Shown in pieces: positions 42,356-50,737 of a stretch of DNA of 60,187 bases. This DNA is from an uncultured Verrucomicrobia subdivision 3 bacterium (lineage in GTDB: Bacteria > Verrucomicrobiota > Verrucomicrobiia > Limisphaerales > UBA8199). Made by a program: the position numbers and the translations under genes. The notes beneath the pieces were generated by a model. That model was not told the DNA's origin. It did not search any database and saw only the letters and a list, made by a program, of their open reading frames with translations. The DNA lies in contig CAIWMU010000079.1 in NCBI GenBank assembly GCA_903913865.1, positions 1-60,187 on the forward strand. The letters are read 5' to 3'. Numbering within the stretch: position 1 is the first letter of the stretch; the number at the start of each line of letters is the position of its first letter.

Positions 42356-43060
42356 CTACTCCCCTGCGGGTGGATTGGAGGCAAAGGGTCGTCGCAGGCG
42401 GGTCAGACCATATAGAAGTAGATAGGTGGTAAAAATGAAGGCTGCGAACAGCAGCGGGACCACCATGCCTGTCGAGTGCGAGGGGGGTGATGTGGCCCAA
42501 TTTCCGACCTCCCGCAGGATTGCGCGGGGCCTTAAAAGAATATCCCAACTGTTGAAGCGCATGAATCTGCCCAAATAGACACCAAAACCGGTGATTACCG
42601 CGACAACCGGTATGAGCAACCAGCTCGCTACCAATCCAAACCGTTCCCGGACAAGACCTTGAATCAGGTAGAGTGAGAGGAATCCCAATACAAATCCCGT
42701 CAGGGCGCAGGATAGGATTAACACCAGATCCACCCAGAAAAGGGACTGAACCCGGTTGGTGAGGTGGATCAGATCCGTGAAAATGTAGGGGGCATTCGGG
42801 AAAAAGAGTATCCACACGCCGACCCAGACTGCGACCCGCCAACCCTGCCCCGGCGTGCGCCGGTTCTGTTCTGAGGCGATCAGGGCAAAAACCAGTGGAA
42901 GCCAGGCCAGAAACAGGTTCCAGGCCAATCCAGTGTAACCGGGATCATGCGTCCAGTGAACCCTCCATCCCACCAGTGCCAGACTTGCCCCGGAGGCAAA
43001 AAGAAGCGCCAGTATGGGCATGGCGGTGCCCGACTCAAACGCCAGCTTCAACACCCTCAT
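42356..43060 (-). CDS. DUF1361 family membrane protein
   Basis: A 234-residue integral membrane protein with about seven hydrophobic segments. Family signatures include YTGLAWNLFLAWLPLVFAL, FFPNAPYIFTDLIHL and GVYLGRFMRFNSWD. Function is unknown. Its start overlaps the stop of the upstream membrane protein by four bases (ATGA), which fixes this start. Confidence 0.85.
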   Translation of the reverse strand: MRVLKLAFESGTAMPILALLFASGASLALVGWRVHWTHDPGYTGLAWNLFLAWLPLVFALIASEQNRRTPGQGWRVAVWVGVWILFFPNAPYIFTDLIHLTNRVQSLFWVDLVLILSCALTGFVLGFLSLYLIQGLVRERFGLVASWLLIPVVAVITGFGVYLGRFMRFNSWDILLRPRAILREVGNWATSPPSHSTGMVVPLLFAAFIFTTYLLLYGLTRLRRPFASNPPAGE

Positions 43061-43773
43061 ATGCTATTCATGTCTTCCTCCTGCCGACTATACATTGTTG
43101 AGGCTTGGGATGCGCCAAAAATCCTTCGGGTCATCAGGGTCGGAATCAGGGGGCTTGCGATTAGGAACAGGGCAGGGGTGAAGAGCCACCAGTTGAACCG
43201 GGTTGGCAGGAGTCGGCGCATGGACTCCACGGATTTGTCATTCAGATGGATCGCATCCGCCATGAAGACATAAAGGGCCAGTAGAATCCCGGCGGCAAAC
43301 AGAGCCCAGTAATGCCAGACGGGAGGCCGGTAGATGGGGGCGGCTTGAGTGACGAGTGTGCCCCAAATGATCATCAGACTCGCAATGAGGACAGGGGCAA
43401 GCACCGGGCCCCACCAGGGAAGCGGAATCAGGAAGAGGATATCCCAATCCAGAATGGAGGTGGGCCATGAGCACATCACGACCAGAAAGACGTAATAAAG
43501 AATGTCCCAGAGCCCGAAAGCGAGCGCTGCATATCCCAAACGCTCCCGCCAGGTTCTGCCAGCCAGAATGCCAACCGTCAGGAGCATCAGGAGGGTGGCC
43601 GCCTCGCGTACGACCTCAGCCATTCCCAGCCCGCCCGCCTCCGGGAGCGGGAGTGGCTGGTAGGGGTTGATCCGGTTGATCATGGTCCGCAGATAGAAGA
43701 CGACCGCCGATTCGACCCAGGCCATGCCGGCGGCGTAGGCGCAAACCACGTAAAATTTGTTTTTCTCCTTCAA
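43057..43773 (-). CDS. Membrane protein of unknown function
   Basis: A hydrophobic protein of about 238 residues with six predicted membrane helices; no family recognised. The TTG at 43773 is preferred because it follows the ispH stop by 16 bases and is preceded by AAAGGAA at a five-base distance; an upstream ATG would overlap ispH by tens of bases. The third helix region has the acidic sequence LDWDILFLIPLPWWGPV, and ADAIHLND lies near the fifth helix. It overlaps the DUF1361 gene by four bases. Confidence 0.6.
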   Translation of the reverse strand: MKEKNKFYVVCAYAAGMAWVESAVVFYLRTMINRINPYQPLPLPEAGGLGMAEVVREAATLLMLLTVGILAGRTWRERLGYAALAFGLWDILYYVFLVVMCSWPTSILDWDILFLIPLPWWGPVLAPVLIASLMIIWGTLVTQAAPIYRPPVWHYWALFAAGILLALYVFMADAIHLNDKSVESMRRLLPTRFNWWLFTPALFLIASPLIPTLMTRRIFGASQASTMYSRQEEDMNSI

Positions 43774-43789
43774 GGGATTCCTTTCCGTT

Positions 43790-44674
43790 TCAGACAGCGA
43801 CACACCGGGACTCTGTTGTTGGTTGGGGTTGTGCATGCTCATCGACCCAGGCAAGAACCCATTTCTCGATATCATCTATCGTCGATTGCGGAGTCGATGT
43901 TCCAGCGGTGATGCCGACGGATTTAATCCCCTCAAACCACTCGGATCGCAGGTCAATCGCGGTTTGAACATGATAAACCCGTGGGCAGTGTTTTCTGCAG
44001 CTGGCGCAGAGTTCGGCGGTGTTATTGCTTTGTGCTCCTCCAATCACGAGGACAAGTTCCACCTTTTTGGCCAGTTCGATGGCTGCCGCCTGTCGTTGCT
44101 TTGTCGGATGGCATACAGTGTCCACGAAGCGGATCTCGGCGTGCGGGTGGCGGGCGTGGATGGCCTCCACCAGATATCCGACCCTGTCCAGCGGTTGCGT
44201 GGTCTGCGCGATGACGCCGAATCGGGACCGTGGAGCCAGCCTGGCGACATCCCTTTCGTCCTGCACCACGTCAAATTCCTTGAGGTCTTCCGTCAATCCC
44301 CGAACTTCAACATGGCCGTGTCTTCCAATAATGACCGGATGGTAGCCTTCCTCCGCCAGTCTCATCACTGAGCGGTGTGCGGCACGAACCAGCGGACAGG
44401 TTGCTTCAAGAATCAGCAACCCCCGATCGCGGGCGGATTGCTTCATTTTTTCCGAGGCCCCGTGCGCGGTGATCATCGCGAGTTTCGTGCGCACGCTCTC
44501 CAGATCCCTTTCCACGCGGACACCTCGATTTTTCAATTCGGCGTTGACGGTGTCGTTGTGAACCAGTTCCCCAAGGATGGTGAGGGGTGTGTGTTCCCCG
44601 GTCTCCATTGCCAGATCAATGGCATCCTTGACCCCAAAACACATGCCCATATGCCGGGCTCGAATGATTTTCAT
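43790..44674 (-). CDS. ispH: 4-hydroxy-3-methylbut-2-enyl diphosphate reductase
   Basis: The last enzyme of the MEP isoprenoid pathway, making IPP and DMAPP. The 294-residue protein has the three iron-sulfur cysteines in MGMCFGV, EATCPLV and DTVCHPTKQRQ, plus the active-site GRHGHVEVRG and IGGAQSNNTAEL. The start at 44674 (MKIIRARHMGMC) is set by the family N-terminus. A palindrome ACTTTG-N5-CAAAGT lies 46-62 bases before the start codon and may be a regulatory site. The two membrane-protein genes follow immediately. Confidence 0.96.
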   Translation of the reverse strand: MKIIRARHMGMCFGVKDAIDLAMETGEHTPLTILGELVHNDTVNAELKNRGVRVERDLESVRTKLAMITAHGASEKMKQSARDRGLLILEATCPLVRAAHRSVMRLAEEGYHPVIIGRHGHVEVRGLTEDLKEFDVVQDERDVARLAPRSRFGVIAQTTQPLDRVGYLVEAIHARHPHAEIRFVDTVCHPTKQRQAAAIELAKKVELVLVIGGAQSNNTAELCASCRKHCPRVYHVQTAIDLRSEWFEGIKSVGITAGTSTPQSTIDDIEKWVLAWVDEHAQPQPTTESRCVAV

Positions 44675-44719: not shown

Positions 44720-44736
44720 ACTTTGCGTCACAAAGT
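44720..44736. promoter_or_regulatory. Palindromic operator-like site upstream of ispH
   Basis: ACTTTG-CGTCA-CAAAGT, a perfect six-base palindrome with a five-base spacer. It lies between the end of the regulator gene (44781) and ispH, within a possible TTCACT-N16-TTTAAT promoter on the - strand. The same half-sites and spacing recur at 45708-45723. Confidence 0.6.
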
Positions 44737-44780
44737 GAATGACCGCTGCCATGGGAACGTGTTCAAAGTTTTCAGAAATT

Positions 44781-45089
44781 TTATTCGAGCTTCGACTGCC
44801 GGACAATCTGCTCAAGCAGATTGATATATTGGGCAAAGGCGGTGCGGCCGACGGGTGTCAGGGCGCATGTGGTGAGCGGTCGGTTCTTTTGGAAACTCTT
44901 TGTGACAGAAAGATAGCCCGCCTCCTGCAGGGTGCGGATGTGGGTGGTGATATTGCCATCCGTCATCCCCAGCGAATCCCGCATCTCCGTGAAGGAAAGC
45001 TCCGGATTCGCCGCCAGCATGGACATGATTCCAAGCCGTCCCTTTTCATGGATAATCCGATCCAGTTGTAGAAAGGGTTCCGGATTCAC
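44781..45089 (-). CDS. Winged-helix transcriptional regulator
   Basis: A 102-residue DNA-binding protein of the winged-helix type (HTH_34/ArsR-MarR-like). MSMLAANPELSFTEMRDSLGMTDGNITTHIRTLQEAGYLSVTKSF shows a helix-turn-helix followed by the wing, and a C-terminal helix (YINLLEQIVRQ) suits dimerisation. It overlaps the membrane-protein gene by four bases. In this family the regulator commonly controls its own operon; palindromes at 45708-45723 and 44720-44736 are candidate sites. Confidence 0.85.
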   Translation of the reverse strand: MNPEPFLQLDRIIHEKGRLGIMSMLAANPELSFTEMRDSLGMTDGNITTHIRTLQEAGYLSVTKSFQKNRPLTTCALTPVGRTAFAQYINLLEQIVRQSKLE

Positions 45090-45700
45090 TGCTTGGCCTG
45101 ATTTTTCTCGGTGAAAAACAGATAAATGCCTGATGCGAGATGAAGGCCGCCGAACGAGGCTGCCATCTCAATATGCGGCAAACCACTGATCCTGAAGGTT
45201 CCATGCACACATAAGACCGCACATCCACAGAGCAGAAACAGCCATCCGAGAATACGGACGCCACGACTGATGAAAAAGCCCGCCGAGCAAAGGGAGCAGC
45301 CGTAGAGCACCATCCAGAGGGAAGGCAGAATCTCTGAAGGAATCAAACCGGGGTTGAAAATCAGGCTTAAGGGACCCACGAGACTACCAGCCGCCAGGCC
45401 GGGAAGCATTGCCTGTGCAACCCTGCGGGTTGGGGGGGACCAGAATGGCTCCGAGTCCTTGAGTGCCTGACGGCGGACGAGCAGCAGTGATATGATCAAC
45501 GCCACAAACGCAACACCCGACCACATCGTGACAAATCGCCAGTCAGGGCCGATGGCTGCGGCATACCCGATCCCGCCTCCAAGCAGGCCTGTTATTCCTG
45601 CGGCAGCCATGAGTGGGGCCATGGCGCGGCGATAAAGGGCGGCACGCTCCATGAGAGTTCGGATGATCTGGATTTGCTCGCTGGCGACGTTCGGATCCAT
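45086..45700 (-). CDS. Membrane protein paired with a winged-helix regulator
   Basis: A 204-residue protein with about six hydrophobic helices after a soluble N-terminus (about 1-28). Such regulator-linked membrane proteins are common in Acidobacteria, Bacteroidetes and Verrucomicrobiota, and their function is unknown. The start codon lies eight bases after the palindrome at 45708-45723, so expression could be blocked by a bound regulator. The product is encoded first, the regulator second, with a four-base overlap. Confidence 0.7.
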   Translation of the reverse strand: MDPNVASEQIQIIRTLMERAALYRRAMAPLMAAAGITGLLGGGIGYAAAIGPDWRFVTMWSGVAFVALIISLLLVRRQALKDSEPFWSPPTRRVAQAMLPGLAAGSLVGPLSLIFNPGLIPSEILPSLWMVLYGCSLCSAGFFISRGVRILGWLFLLCGCAVLCVHGTFRISGLPHIEMAASFGGLHLASGIYLFFTEKNQAKQ

Positions 45701-45707
45701 GGTTTAT

Positions 45708-45723
45708 ACTTTGTCCTGCAAAG
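45708..45723. promoter_or_regulatory. Operator-like palindrome before the membrane protein/regulator operon
   Basis: ACTTTG-TCCTG-CAAAGA, with CTTTG/CAAAG arms and a five-base spacer, lies eight bases before the start codon at 45700. A TTGACA hexamer (- strand, 45736-45731) and TATAAA (45708-45703) flank it but are 22 bases apart, too far for a normal promoter, so the exact start of transcription is unclear. Confidence 0.6.
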
Positions 45724-46057
45724 ACAAGATTGTCAAGCACACCGAATGTTTCAAAACATTGACAGGTTCCGGCTGACTCAGCATGCTCCATTTCGTGCTC
45801 AGGACAATTGGGGTTCAAGACCCAGAGGTCATCACAAAGTCCCTAGTTTTCCCGGCGTTGTTCACGGCGGGACATACCTTTTTGGCTTTCACCCACAGGT
45901 TCCCAACACGCATCCATCCTGAATCATTACCCCGGGACGGTTTCGCTGGTCTCCTGAGAGTGACGTGCGAACTGGTATCGCGGATCATTTCTGTCAAAGT
46001 GCAAATGCTTATTCACGAGGGGATTGTGGAGTTTCAGGCAACAGGAGGGGGATCGAC
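45724..46057. other. Intergenic region between the membrane protein operon and the glycosyltransferase
   Basis: No gene identified. A strong ribosome binding site AGGAGG sits just before the glycosyltransferase start. Other than the promoter-like element at 45731-45736, I see nothing clear. Confidence 0.35.
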
Positions 46058-47206
46058 ATGTTGAGCATGCTGCTCGGAGGTTTGGCGGTTCTGAGTGTCG
46101 GGATTATGATCTGGCAAGCGGTGGTTGCCTTTCGTTTTCCACTGCATCGGAGCAGTTCTGGGAGGGGCAGGGTGGCACCCGTCACGCTGCTGAAGCCGCT
46201 CAAAGGGTGCGATGAATTTACCGAAACCTGCCTCCGGAGCTGGTTCAAGCAGGAGTATCCGGAGCCAGTTCAGATCATTTTTGGAGTGGCTTCGGCTCAG
46301 GATCCGGTTTGCGGGATTGTTCATAGGTTGATGGAAGAGCATCCCAAGGTGGACGCCGTTCTCAAGGTGTTCAGTCCCCTTCATGGCACAAATCTGAAGG
46401 TAGCGAAGCTGGTGGAGATGGAGCGGATGGCCAGCCACCGCCTGCTTGTGGTGAGCGATGCTGACGTCTGCGCCCCGACCGATCTACTGTCGAATGTGGT
46501 AAGCCAGCTGCTGGTGGCCGATGCCGGGTTGGTTCATTGCTTTTACCGGCTCGAACCGCCGGGAACACTTGCCATGAGGTGTGAGGCGGTTGCTGTGAAT
46601 GCCGATTTCTGGTCTCAGGCGCTGCAGAGTTCATCCTTCAGACCTGTGGATTTTGCGTTGGGAGCGGTGATGGCCTTTCGAAAGAAGGATCTTTCCAGCA
46701 TTGGAGGGTTCGAGGCTCTCAAAAACTGTCTTGCGGATGACTACCAGATCGGACATCGGATCGCGGGGCTGGGAAGACACATCCTCTTTTCGTCGGTTGT
46801 GGTCGAGTGCTGGTCAGGGACGATGGGTTGGGGGGCAGTCTGGCGACACCAGGTTCGCTGGGCTCGAACGATCCGGGTCAGTCAACCCATGCCCTATTTC
46901 ATGAGCATTCTGAGCAACGCAACTTTGTGGGGGTTCGCCTGCATGGGCCAGGGTAGCGGATGGGCAGTCCTCCTGGGCGGATTTGTGCTTGGTGTGAGGA
47001 GTGTTCTGGCGGTCAGCCTGCAGAATCGCCTGCGGCGCGGGGTTGTTGAATGGGCTTGGTTTTGGGTTCCCTGGCTCAAGGACATCATGCAAATTGGCAT
47101 CTGGTCCATGGCGTTCATGGGGAACACAATCGAATGGCGTGGAGAGCGGATGCGGCTTGAGCGGGATGGGACACTTCATCCAATGAAGCCGGACACCCGG
47201 CAATAG
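46058..47206 (+). CDS. GT21-family glycosyltransferase (HpnI/ceramide glucosyltransferase-like)
   Basis: A 382-residue membrane glycosyltransferase. After one N-terminal helix, the GT-A domain shows PVTLLKPLKGCDEFTETCLRSW, the DxD motif VVSDADV, the acceptor loop LADDYQIGHRI and the (Q/R)xxRW-like RHQVRWARTIR; several C-terminal helices follow. This is the GT21 family of ceramide glucosyltransferases and of HpnI, which adds N-acetylglucosamine to hopanoid lipids. The HpnA-like epimerase elsewhere in the window makes a hopanoid link possible but does not prove it. The start at 46058 is supported by AGGAGG. Confidence 0.88.
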   Translation: MLSMLLGGLAVLSVGIMIWQAVVAFRFPLHRSSSGRGRVAPVTLLKPLKGCDEFTETCLRSWFKQEYPEPVQIIFGVASAQDPVCGIVHRLMEEHPKVDAVLKVFSPLHGTNLKVAKLVEMERMASHRLLVVSDADVCAPTDLLSNVVSQLLVADAGLVHCFYRLEPPGTLAMRCEAVAVNADFWSQALQSSSFRPVDFALGAVMAFRKKDLSSIGGFEALKNCLADDYQIGHRIAGLGRHILFSSVVVECWSGTMGWGAVWRHQVRWARTIRVSQPMPYFMSILSNATLWGFACMGQGSGWAVLLGGFVLGVRSVLAVSLQNRLRRGVVEWAWFWVPWLKDIMQIGIWSMAFMGNTIEWRGERMRLERDGTLHPMKPDTRQ

Positions 47207-47355: not shown

Positions 47356-47407
47356 TAATTAACAAAACTCACAGTTGAGTTCAGGCAACAACAATCAGGA
47401 GATACGC

Positions 47408-50400
47408 ATGAAGAAAAACAGTATTCTTACAAAACTCGCGTTCGGCGCCTTGCCGGCCATTGCTTCGCTGCTTTTGGCCCAGTCGGCTTTCGCGACCCCA
47501 TATGCAAGCTCATTAACAAACAATGGCGGAACCGTTTCGTTCCGTCTTAATGAGGCTGCCGACAATGTCCGCATCATTTGGAACGGTGGGGCGAATACCA
47601 ACACTCTGGGGCCACGCAGCCGCGGACTGACCGTTACCAACATCGCAGGCTTGACCGGCGTTTTCTTCGTTCAGACATCCAAGATTGGTGATGGCGTTTT
47701 TACGACCAACAGTGCCCCGGTCACCTTCAATTCTCCTCGTGGTATTGCCGTCAACGCGAATCCTGCAACCCCCTACTTCGGGCGCGTTTATGTGGCGAAC
47801 AGTGCCGCCGCAGCCAAGGGGGATGGAATTTATGCCCTCAACGCCGATTTGACTGATGTGTTTGGAACGAATCGGACGGGTGGTATCAACTTTGCCTTGG
47901 GCGGCAGCTCGGCTCCGTATCGCATTTCAGTTGGGTTTGATGACAGCCAGCTCTACATTTGCGACTGGTCAGATGCGGCGGGTAACCTGTGGGTGACCGA
48001 CCCTGATGTCACAACGAACGCTTCCGTTTTCAAGCCGTTGACAGGATCAGCGGCGATTCCTGCCACCTTGAACAATAACCATGGAAGTTTGGAGGCCGTT
48101 GCTGTGAAGGGAAGTCTGGCGAATTCGAACCTGACTGTGTTCTTCATGGATGAGGACCTGCAATTGGATCGCGAGACGACCTCGGCGACCCAGATGAACA
48201 GCCTCTGGCGTTATGATGTGTTCAATGCGGCACCTTTTGTGGATTTCCAGACCAATCTGATTTTCACACCCGCGATCAATTTTGTCAGCCAGACGATGGA
48301 TCTCTCGCGGGGGCCAAATGATTATCTCTATGTTTCCCACTACCGCTCCTCCGGAAATGAGGCTGGCGTCTATGTGGTGACCAATGGTCTCCAGGCGGAT
48401 GCACTTCCGTGGAACAGCCCCTTCCTTTGGAACTCGAAAACGGCGAGTGCGGATCTTGGTTATCTTCAGGACGTGCTGAAGGCTGCCGGGGCGATTGCTG
48501 CTTCCCGCGATGGTCGCATGCTCGCGCATCTCAACTATGAAAACAACTCCGTGACGGCAGTCCGCCTGACCAACGGTATTCCCGACCTGACGCGCATTTG
48601 GAAATACACTGGATTTACTGCGACCGCGGCAGGGCGTGGTATCGCCTTCGACGCCGCCGACAACATCTACATTGTCAGTTCCGGCATCGCCCGCCTCCAG
48701 TCTTTGACCTTGGGCATCACCGCCACCGCCACCACCGGATCTGATGGCACGTTCGTTCTTGATATTCCGCAGATCGTGGGTGTGGTTGCAACAGATCCGA
48801 TCGCCCATGAAGAAACACCTGCGAGCGACACTGCGACGTTCACCTTCAATCGTGAGGGGGATGTCAGCGCTCCTCTCACGGTGAACCTGACCATCTCAGG
48901 CACCGCAGTGAATGGCACAGATTATCAGGCCATACCGACCAGCGTGACCTTCCCGGCTGGCAGCGCCACGACCACAGTCACAATCACACCCATCGATGAC
49001 AGCCTCATCGAGTCCCCCGAAACCGTCATCCTTAAGATCGCAAGCTCCGCCAGCTATTCTGTTTTGGACAATGCCTCTGCAACGGCTGTGATTGCTGATA
49101 ATGAGACCCCTCTGATTGGGATTACCGGCATCAATACGAATATGTATGAGCCCTATCCGACAGACTTTGCCCGCCTTCGGATCACCCGCCTTGGGGAGAC
49201 CAATATCGCCCTGAGCGTAAACATTGACTTCTCTGGTGGGCCTCAGGTTGGGGCGGACTTCATGATGGCCTCCAGCGCCACTCTGAATTCCGGGGATGTC
49301 ACCGCAACCTTTGATTTGAATCCGATGGATAATTCGAACGTGACAGGGATCCGTTCATTCACGGTCACAGTCGCGAATGCTTTTGGCGGTGAATACACGC
49401 CGAATTCGACGAATAAGTCTGTGGTGGTCACCATCACTGATGACGATCTCCCCTCGGAAGCTGCAAACCTTCTCTGGAGTGAGACGTTCGACAATCCCCA
49501 GCCGGATAACACCCTGCCCGCCGACTGGACATTTACCTACGGCACCACGAACAACAGCCTCCCGCTCCTTCAGGATTACAAGTTCACCTTTGGTTATGAC
49601 TATGGGGTGGATGGAATTCCTGCGGCACCTGGAGCTGTTGGTTCAACAGGCCTCAAGGTTACAGTCAACAAAAATGACACCACAGCCGCTGCTGCTGGCA
49701 TCAACTTCTATCCGGCAGGCAAATCGTTTGCGAATGACTTTGCACTTCGTTTCAGCCTCCTGATTTATGCCAATACCACATCCAATACGACTGAGCATGC
49801 GATCTTTGGCATCAACCATTCCGGGACCAAGACCAACTGGTATCGATCCGGGAACGTGGGGCTGGCTGCGGCGAACATGGACGGATTGTTCTTCTCTGTG
49901 GATGCGGTTGACGGTGCGGCCACCGACTTCACGCTCTTCACGAAGCCTTCCTTCGCGACGAACACCAATCCTCTGATCCTTGTGGACCGGACCTATGCCA
50001 ACTTCACCAACATCTTCAAGAACCCGCCGTTTGTTTCGTTCGGAACAGCGGGTTCCCGCACATCGCCAACCTGGGCTGATGTTGAGGTGAGCAAGACCAC
50101 GAACATGGTTGCCCTGCGGATCAACAATACGATGATCCTCCAGAGCACCAACACGACCGGGTTTAATGCGGGCAACATCATGCTTGGCTACATGGACTGC
50201 TATGACTCCATCGGTGGCGCCAACGGTGCCGCTTATTTTGACAATGTGCGGGTGGTGAAGATTACCCCGCCGGTTGTCACAGCCAACCCTGTCGGTCGGG
50301 CAGGTCTCATCGGTGGGACGGCCACGCTCTCGGTGAGTGCGTCCAGCTCGACTGGAACGTTGAATTACCAATGGATGCTGAACGGAGCAGCCATCGCAGG

Positions 50401-50737
50401 TGCCACGGGATCGACCCTGACCCTCACGAACGTTCAGGCGGCCAATCTCGGGGCCTATTATGTAATTGTGAATGACGGTCGGTATCCTGTCAGCAGCGCT
50501 GTGGCGGTTCTCTCGCAGGCTACGGCACCCACGATCCTCGTGTCACGGGATCCGGCCAACGTTCTGCTTCGTTTCAACACCCAGGTGGGTCCGGCCTATG
50601 ATGTCGAATACAAGCAGGCGGTGACGGATGCCTCCTGGACCCTGCTCCAATCGGTGACTGGAACCGGTTCACAGGCGACTGTCAGCGATCCGATCTCCGC
50701 CACGACCACCCGGTTGTATCGTGTGAAGGTCCGGTAA
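47408..50737 (+). CDS. Large exported protein with Calx-beta, LamG-like and Ig-like domains
   Basis: A 1109-residue secreted protein. A signal peptide (1-29) is followed by a repeat-rich N-terminal region (about 30-455) that looks like a beta-propeller (PRGIAVN, YVSHYRSSG, GRGIAFDAADNIYIV). Two Calx-beta domains follow (about 459-565 and 578-680, with NGTDYQAIP and a DD-containing linker), then a LamG/jelly-roll domain (about 688-950), an Ig-like domain (about 954-1037: YQWMLNGAAIAGATGSTLTLTNVQAANLGAYYV) and a 70-residue C-terminal tail ending in LYRVKVR. The tail resembles the end of the LamG protein at 3817. Calx-beta domains usually bind calcium. It is likely a surface or extracellular adhesin-like protein. 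Start at 47408 is supported by AGGAG. Confidence 0.8.
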   Translation: MKKNSILTKLAFGALPAIASLLLAQSAFATPYASSLTNNGGTVSFRLNEAADNVRIIWNGGANTNTLGPRSRGLTVTNIAGLTGVFFVQTSKIGDGVFTTNSAPVTFNSPRGIAVNANPATPYFGRVYVANSAAAAKGDGIYALNADLTDVFGTNRTGGINFALGGSSAPYRISVGFDDSQLYICDWSDAAGNLWVTDPDVTTNASVFKPLTGSAAIPATLNNNHGSLEAVAVKGSLANSNLTVFFMDEDLQLDRETTSATQMNSLWRYDVFNAAPFVDFQTNLIFTPAINFVSQTMDLSRGPNDYLYVSHYRSSGNEAGVYVVTNGLQADALPWNSPFLWNSKTASADLGYLQDVLKAAGAIAASRDGRMLAHLNYENNSVTAVRLTNGIPDLTRIWKYTGFTATAAGRGIAFDAADNIYIVSSGIARLQSLTLGITATATTGSDGTFVLDIPQIVGVVATDPIAHEETPASDTATFTFNREGDVSAPLTVNLTISGTAVNGTDYQAIPTSVTFPAGSATTTVTITPIDDSLIESPETVILKIASSASYSVLDNASATAVIADNETPLIGITGINTNMYEPYPTDFARLRITRLGETNIALSVNIDFSGGPQVGADFMMASSATLNSGDVTATFDLNPMDNSNVTGIRSFTVTVANAFGGEYTPNSTNKSVVVTITDDDLPSEAANLLWSETFDNPQPDNTLPADWTFTYGTTNNSLPLLQDYKFTFGYDYGVDGIPAAPGAVGSTGLKVTVNKNDTTAAAAGINFYPAGKSFANDFALRFSLLIYANTTSNTTEHAIFGINHSGTKTNWYRSGNVGLAAANMDGLFFSVDAVDGAATDFTLFTKPSFATNTNPLILVDRTYANFTNIFKNPPFVSFGTAGSRTSPTWADVEVSKTTNMVALRINNTMILQSTNTTGFNAGNIMLGYMDCYDSIGGANGAAYFDNVRVVKITPPVVTANPVGRAGLIGGTATLSVSASSSTGTLNYQWMLNGAAIAGATGSTLTLTNVQAANLGAYYVIVNDGRYPVSSAVAVLSQATAPTILVSRDPANVLLRFNTQVGPAYDVEYKQAVTDASWTLLQSVTGTGSQATVSDPISATTTRLYRVKVR

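Follow-up and report, generated by a model that had tools for sequence, protein, structure and literature searches.

One described counterpart in organisation is SdpR/SdpI of Bacillus subtilis, an autorepressor and a membrane protein that sequesters it. The pair described here, a small regulator (REG) and its membrane partner (MEM), appears to follow the same plan: one autoregulated operon of two genes, for a polytopic membrane protein and for a winged-helix repressor that has no ligand domain. We take SdpR/SdpI as a model for how a signal might pass from MEM to REG. The likeness does not extend to the sequences: REG reaches 15.3 of the 100 bits required by the SdpR model NF033789, MEM has no match to the SdpI Pfam family at E values up to 0.1, and neither have 30 members of the MEM family at E values up to 0.01. 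Furthermore, unlike SdpR/SdpI, the MEM-REG pair is proposed to control a gene outside its own operon, ispH.

The family and the fold of REG are already known. REG matches HTH_34 (PF13601) with 92.6 bits against a cut-off of 27, by far its best model, although it also passes HTH_5 (arsR) and falls just below the cut-offs of MarR (24.2 of 24.6 bits) and MarR_2 (25.5 of 27 bits). Among solved chains the best sequence match is the HTH_34 protein PH1061 (1UB9; E = 2.4e-8). The AlphaFold2 model of REG (mean pLDDT 90.9) has the order H-H-H-E-E-H with the recognition helix at residues 44-56, and the winged-helix fold is recovered in comparisons with 1UB9 (Z 13.1, rmsd 2.5 over 90 residues), with the PadR-like 5H20 (Z 14.2, rmsd 1.8 over 96) and with LmrR, MepR and MarR entries (Z 12.4-13.0). 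A short dyad operator lying over a promoter is a further point of likeness to the MarR, PadR and ArsR regulators.

For the HTH_34 family we found no operator, partner or regulon in the literature, among the matches listed, and no paper in the literature searched joined PF13601 with a winged helix, an operon and a membrane protein. CsmR of Haloferax was considered as a counterpart and dropped, its site being TATCA-N4-TGATA (PMC13286277). Six typical operator strings from this study had no occurrence in the literature searched, and among the matches listed no repressor of ispH was named in a title or the start of an abstract. We know of no dedicated local repressor of ispH and, to our knowledge, few transcription factors have been characterised in the Verrucomicrobiota.

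A regulator gene between two palindromes

The window, by which we mean the whole stretch of 60,187 nucleotides that was analysed, comes from a member of the Verrucomicrobiota, Limisphaerales (subdivision 3). The genes and palindromes of interest are as follows.

42356-43060 (-): DUF1361 membrane protein (PF07099, 145.6 bits), overlapping M2 by 4 bases
43057-43875 (-): M2, membrane protein with an uncertain start and no Pfam family over cut-off, probably co-transcribed with ispH
43790-44674 (-): ispH (lytB), 4-hydroxy-3-methylbut-2-enyl diphosphate reductase, the proposed target
44720-44736: operator 1, ACTTTGCGTCACAAAGT, core 44721-44735, between REG and ispH
44781-45089 (-): REG, 102-aa HTH_34 winged-helix regulator with a GTG start, overlapping MEM by 4 bases
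45086-45700 (-): MEM, 204-aa membrane protein with six predicted helices, first gene of the operon
45708-45724: operator 2, ACTTTGTCCTGCAAAGA, core 45709-45723

A first-pass annotation of this DNA had described both palindromes, and both are present, but the second ends at 45724, one base beyond the end it was given. They flank the 102-codon regulator gene as described, although jointly with the upstream partner gene, and the distance of eight bases between the second palindrome and the first gene of the operon holds if it is counted from the end of the core to the ATG of MEM. A third near-copy of the dyad, with one mismatch, lies inside the REG gene at 44898-44912 and has no counterpart in the other family and order loci compared.

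According to the same annotation, the regulator would bind at both sites and so govern its own membrane protein gene as well as ispH. That proposal is supported along four lines: both sites are conserved together with the MEM-REG-ispH order, strict sites were seen only in genomes with REG, the same dyad lies beside REG homologues in other classes and phyla, and the first base of the dyad covaries with residue 44, at the head of the recognition helix. We consider it probable that the palindromes are operators of REG, that REG represses its own operon and ispH, and that MEM is the likely sensor. On this view REG, which is small, has a winged helix but no ligand domain and is encoded behind MEM in a two-gene operon, would bind the 17-bp dyad ACTTTGYRNYRCAAAGT as a dimer. 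IspH makes isoprenoid precursors, including those of the lipid carrier for cell-wall synthesis, and the outcome of such control would be an isoprenoid supply, together with a few envelope and cofactor genes, that is matched to a membrane signal.

Conservation across the order and the refined motif

The sites recur at orthologous positions in relatives: the dyad is found before MEM, at a distance of 5-11 nt, in 75 of the 77 named loci that are long enough, and in the interval from REG to ispH in 74 of all 80. Within the family both sites are kept in each of the nine orthologue loci that hold both regions, and three loci truncated at contig ends retain the single site that is visible; in the order, both are kept exactly in 25 of 27 loci. 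The gene ispH follows downstream in all 73 loci with 1 kb of sequence, at a distance from the dyad that ranges from 5 to 829 nt, and where this distance is long the site may act from afar or may serve an intervening gene in some relatives. Two loci (L115 and L165) have about 800 bases between operator and ispH, perhaps reflecting an inserted gene.

From the 149 sites with full flanks in the named loci we derived the refined 17-bp operator given above, which reads ACTTTG-Y-R-N-Y-R-CAAAGT. This strict motif has 102 occurrences in the 116 genomes searched from the order, as compared to three for the reversed control. In the genome of the window it fits the ispH site and the site of a BchE-like gene described below, but not the MEM site; operator 2 differs from it at two bases, one inner and one outer. 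The strict site is found in none of the 17 genomes without a REG orthologue and in 39 of the 58 with one (Fisher P = 2.9e-7, with relatedness ignored), while the remaining 19 of the 58 contain no strict site. This comparison covers the 75 genomes with an assigned regulator status and leaves aside 39 others of the 116; two of the 77 typed genomes were dropped (G113 and G119, both without sites), and the 17 genomes counted as without REG include three with a distant match only (G002, G031 and G059; about 33-40% identity).

Predicted promoter architecture

The following promoter elements are predicted around the two operators.

44741-44744 (-): ECF-like -10, GGTC, separated from the core of operator 1 by five bases; GTC in 52 of 74 loci
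44760-44767 (-): ECF-like -35, TTTGAACA, upstream of ispH; GAAC in 59 of 74 loci
45708-45713 (-): -10 of the MEM-REG promoter, CAAAGT, identical with the right arm of operator 2
45731-45736 (-): -35 of the MEM-REG promoter, TTGACA, 17 nt before CAAAGT

The layout before MEM in the window is TTGACA, 17 nt, CAAAGT, 7 nt and ATG, so that the ATG sits at the expected +1. This arrangement is widely shared: 68 of 74 loci have a -35-like TTG[ACT][AC] element before MEM, in 66 of those 68 the distance from the hexamer to CAAAGT is 16-17 nt, and the ATG of MEM stands 7-8 nt after the dyad core in 68 of 76. Judged by sequence pattern, the operator thus lies within its own predicted promoter in 66 of 74 MEM regions, and the MEM-REG operon probably has a sigma-70-like promoter with its -10 inside the operator and gives rise to a leaderless message. 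The operator would cover the spacer and the -10 hexamer, with CAAAGT serving as both half-operator and -10, and binding of REG at this position would therefore shut its own promoter.

The ispH promoter is predicted to be of a different kind. Promoters of ECF sigma factors have a consensus of GAAC at -35 and GTC at -10, about 16-17 nt apart, and both elements are found in 51 of 74 ispH regions versus one of 74 MEM regions. At ispH they stand at fixed positions upstream of the dyad, a layout that resembles an ECF-sigma promoter with an operator on its start site. The operator would follow directly on this GAAC...GTC promoter, at about the point where transcription should begin, and REG bound there would keep ispH and the genes that follow it from being transcribed. 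The composite of ECF-like promoter and operator occurs 12 times in 13 genomes, 11 of them at operators, and the control gives one match. A wide ECF regulon was considered and is not supported, with the two elements by themselves (TTTGAACR-N15-GGTC) giving 43 matches against 31 for the control in the same number of genomes, hardly an excess; seven of the 43 are linked to an operator (five at ispH and two before a 259-aa gene without an assigned family), and one further match precedes the BchE-like gene of genome G001.

The promoter layout also bears on the direction of control. If the dyads are REG operators, REG might still activate ispH or work as a two-way switch, for example together with an ECF-like sigma factor, and the GAAC-N-GTC promoter, which keeps a fixed spacing of some five bases to the operator both at ispH and at other targets, could reflect such joint action with sigma. 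Activators, however, normally bind upstream of the -35. At ispH the operator follows the predicted -10 and sits on the presumed start site, and at MEM it overlies the -10. We therefore regard activation of ispH, or a two-way switch, as unlikely, although some promoters might be activated through the operator.

The recognition helix and the first base of the dyad

REG, read as the repressor of both promoters, is the only HTH_34 match (E ≤ 0.001) found in the 95%-complete, 6.27-Mb genome. Its homologues allow the dyad to be compared with the recognition helix. Residue 44 is Asp in all 26 loci with a CTTTG dyad and in none of the five with a GTTTG-N5-CAAAC dyad (P = 5.9e-6), where it is Lys in three, Arg in one and Ala in one. 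The five are three paralogues from the family, one homologue from Chloroflexota and one from Actinomyces. The paralogues (L020, L030 and L032) share 40-45% identity with REG, have Lys in place of Asp44 beside GTTTG-N5-CAAAC dyads, have no CTTTG dyad and were excluded from the orthologue counts; since they are related to each other, the number of independent events is about three, and the Fisher values ignore relatedness.

A locus was typed by any exact dyad within the sequence retrieved for it. By this measure 14 of the 45 homologues could be assigned to neither type and do not enter the test, which includes only 3 of the 80 loci of the order; the DGN sequence is kept in 10 of these 14. A regular expression applied to the 80 loci of the order returned D at residue 44 in 76, C in one and no match in three. 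Besides residue 44, position 28 is the one alignment column that separates the two dyad groups. Contacts of Asp with cytosine and of Lys or Arg with guanine are ordinary ones, and the covariation suggests that the outer C:G pair of each half-site is read by Asp44, with which the recognition helix begins.

Distribution outside the order

Among 193 genomes sampled from the phylum, REG homologues with 30-53% identity were found in 32 other genomes (E ≤ 1e-10). Of the 29 corresponding loci retrieved outside the order, 19 contain exact dyads (23 in all) and 10 have none, and permuted half-sites give at most one copy over the loci of the phylum and of other phyla taken together. In three relatives from the class (L256-L258) ispH again lies downstream. 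From other phyla we retrieved 26 plasmid records with a REG homologue and examined 10 of them for the dyad (L284-L293): CTTTG dyads are present in four (Aureimonas, Thermomicrobium, Bacteroides finegoldii and Persicobacter, with six sites) and GTTTG dyads in two, while Azospirillum, Streptomyces, Parabacteroides and Natronosalvus have no exact dyad of either type. The dyad is thus retained by some relatives in Bacteroidota, Alphaproteobacteria and Thermomicrobiota.

These loci are informative as to which protein recognises the palindromes. Neighbourhood alone would not prove that REG binds them, and another protein might do so with REG as a mere neighbour. The dyad, however, accompanies REG homologues that have diverged to 34-53% identity within the phylum and 38-51% in other phyla, and ispH lies beside just 3 of the 29 phylum loci (within 1.5-kb flanks). 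In addition, genomes without a REG orthologue are without the strict site, and residue 44 changes along with the first base of the dyad. A different binder is, in our judgement, quite improbable, and we continue with REG as the protein that would recognise both operators.

Two of the loci from other phyla show the module with a different candidate target. On plasmid pAU20b of Aureimonas sp. AU20 (L284, 2355-3431) the order is partner, HTH_34 regulator, exact dyad and uppS, with a one-mismatch dyad before the partner gene; as with ispH in the window, uppS is an isoprenoid gene. In Bacteroides finegoldii a homologous partner, a regulator and an exact operator are followed by creD, and comparison of the window with such Bacteroidota creD operons puts ispH in the place of creD. 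The regulator-operator pair is kept across an order that was sampled in about sixty families and remains recognisable in other phyla. It provides a testable DNA code for a widespread family without an assigned function, as well as a handle on regulation in the Verrucomicrobiota.

The membrane partner as a candidate sensor

The model of REG contains only an N-terminal and a C-terminal helix beside the winged helix, and with no room for a ligand domain a signal borne by the partner is the natural guess. MEM is modelled with six helices (AlphaFold2, mean pLDDT 86.8). It has no Pfam family over cut-off, and a Foldseek search with the model gave no PDB match at E ≤ 0.001. In an alignment of 30 MEM sequences the N-terminal motif IRTLMERS is near-invariant. 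MEM is homologous to two Bacteroidota partners (hhalign probability 98.8), which carry a similar N-terminal motif; no such motif was seen in the partners of Aureimonas and Thermomicrobium. By analogy with SdpI, MEM is likely the sensor that holds or releases REG, a step that draws on the gene pairing and the conserved N-terminal motif and that is the weakest of the proposed mechanism.

A wider reading would see in these pairs an ancient, so far undescribed membrane-signalling module of bacteria at large. In it, HTH_34 repressors without ligand domains would pair with membrane sensors and use a single operator code in several phyla (CTTTG with Asp44, GTTTG with Lys or Arg44). The condition of the membrane or its lipid carriers would then gate the supply of isoprenoids and undecaprenyl (ispH in Verrucomicrobiota, uppS in Aureimonas) as well as envelope genes (creD). 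We offer this extension tentatively and consider it rather doubtful as a whole.

Hairpins and background frequency

The palindromes stand directly before start codons, and in principle the leader RNAs of MEM and ispH could fold into hairpins there and act at that level. The inner positions of the dyad, however, show no covariation of the kind expected for RNA pairs (P = 0.29 and 0.23), which fits two half-sites read in DNA, and the second arm before MEM is placed as a -10, so that the element there would not be transcribed. A role as hairpins is very improbable.

The first-pass annotation had argued that ten specified bases recurring twice within 1 kb were unlikely by chance, and had asked whether the motif is common away from promoters. 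The loose motif CTTTG-N5-CAAAG is itself not rare, and to some extent it does occur away from promoters: it is found at nine places in the 6.27-Mb genome, six of them inside open frames of at least 136 codons (stop to stop), and over 13 genomes of the family it is hardly enriched, with 92 copies as compared to 74 for the reversed control. Position and conservation, on the other hand, go far beyond chance. In the 80 named loci the motif has 151 copies, versus at most six for any other permutation of the half-sites and 0-6 for any other spacing between 0 and 11. Outside the two expected places only one further copy occurs in the 680,182 bases of these loci (L148, position 5825), and it ends 37 nt upstream of the aligned ispH start. 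That the palindromes are chance or background sequence, as the nine genomic copies, the six in open frames and the slight excess over the family control might suggest, has a negligible probability in view of the orthologous positions conserved in nearly every relative and of the permutation and spacing controls.

Probable target genes

The identity of the ispH product is clear from its match to TIGR00216 (245.1 bits, equivalog cut-off 187.85). Co-control of M2 and the DUF1361 gene with ispH is plausible, as both follow ispH closely on the same strand, and in one relative (L095) an operator lies before the M2 homologue.

In the genome of the window, the sole copy of the loose motif that lies beyond the ispH and MEM sites and outside such open frames precedes a B12-radical-SAM gene (C97:76160; L014 and L035). 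The gene (L014, 2-1471, on contig C97) just passes the BchE model, with 484.5 bits against 481.35, and carries the composite promoter-operator. A search of 57 genomes with the protein gave one more copy, in genome G079 from a different family, again with the composite element. Further copies (L089, L091, L096 and L254) were found through the operator and promoter patterns and so offer no independent test; in the BchE-like loci GAAC is present in six of six and GTC in five of six, with the GGTC of L089 one base nearer the dyad. From these elements the BchE-like radical-SAM gene is predicted to be a further target of REG. One relative from the family (L099, genome G011) has creD with an operator of its own, and in single relatives the site precedes genes for uncharacterised proteins. 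From the pattern of sites the regulon looks small and partly changing, around a constant core of MEM-REG and ispH.

The divergent neighbour of the MEM-REG operon (45965-47206) encodes an HpnI-like glycosyltransferase. A link to hopanoids was considered and rejected: the protein remains below the HpnI cut-off (277.3 versus 310 bits), and HpnI is present in only 2 of the 80 named loci (flanks of up to 5 kb). Further along the window, at 47375-50737, lies an open frame of 1120 codons that, judged by eye, is like a secreted repeat protein.
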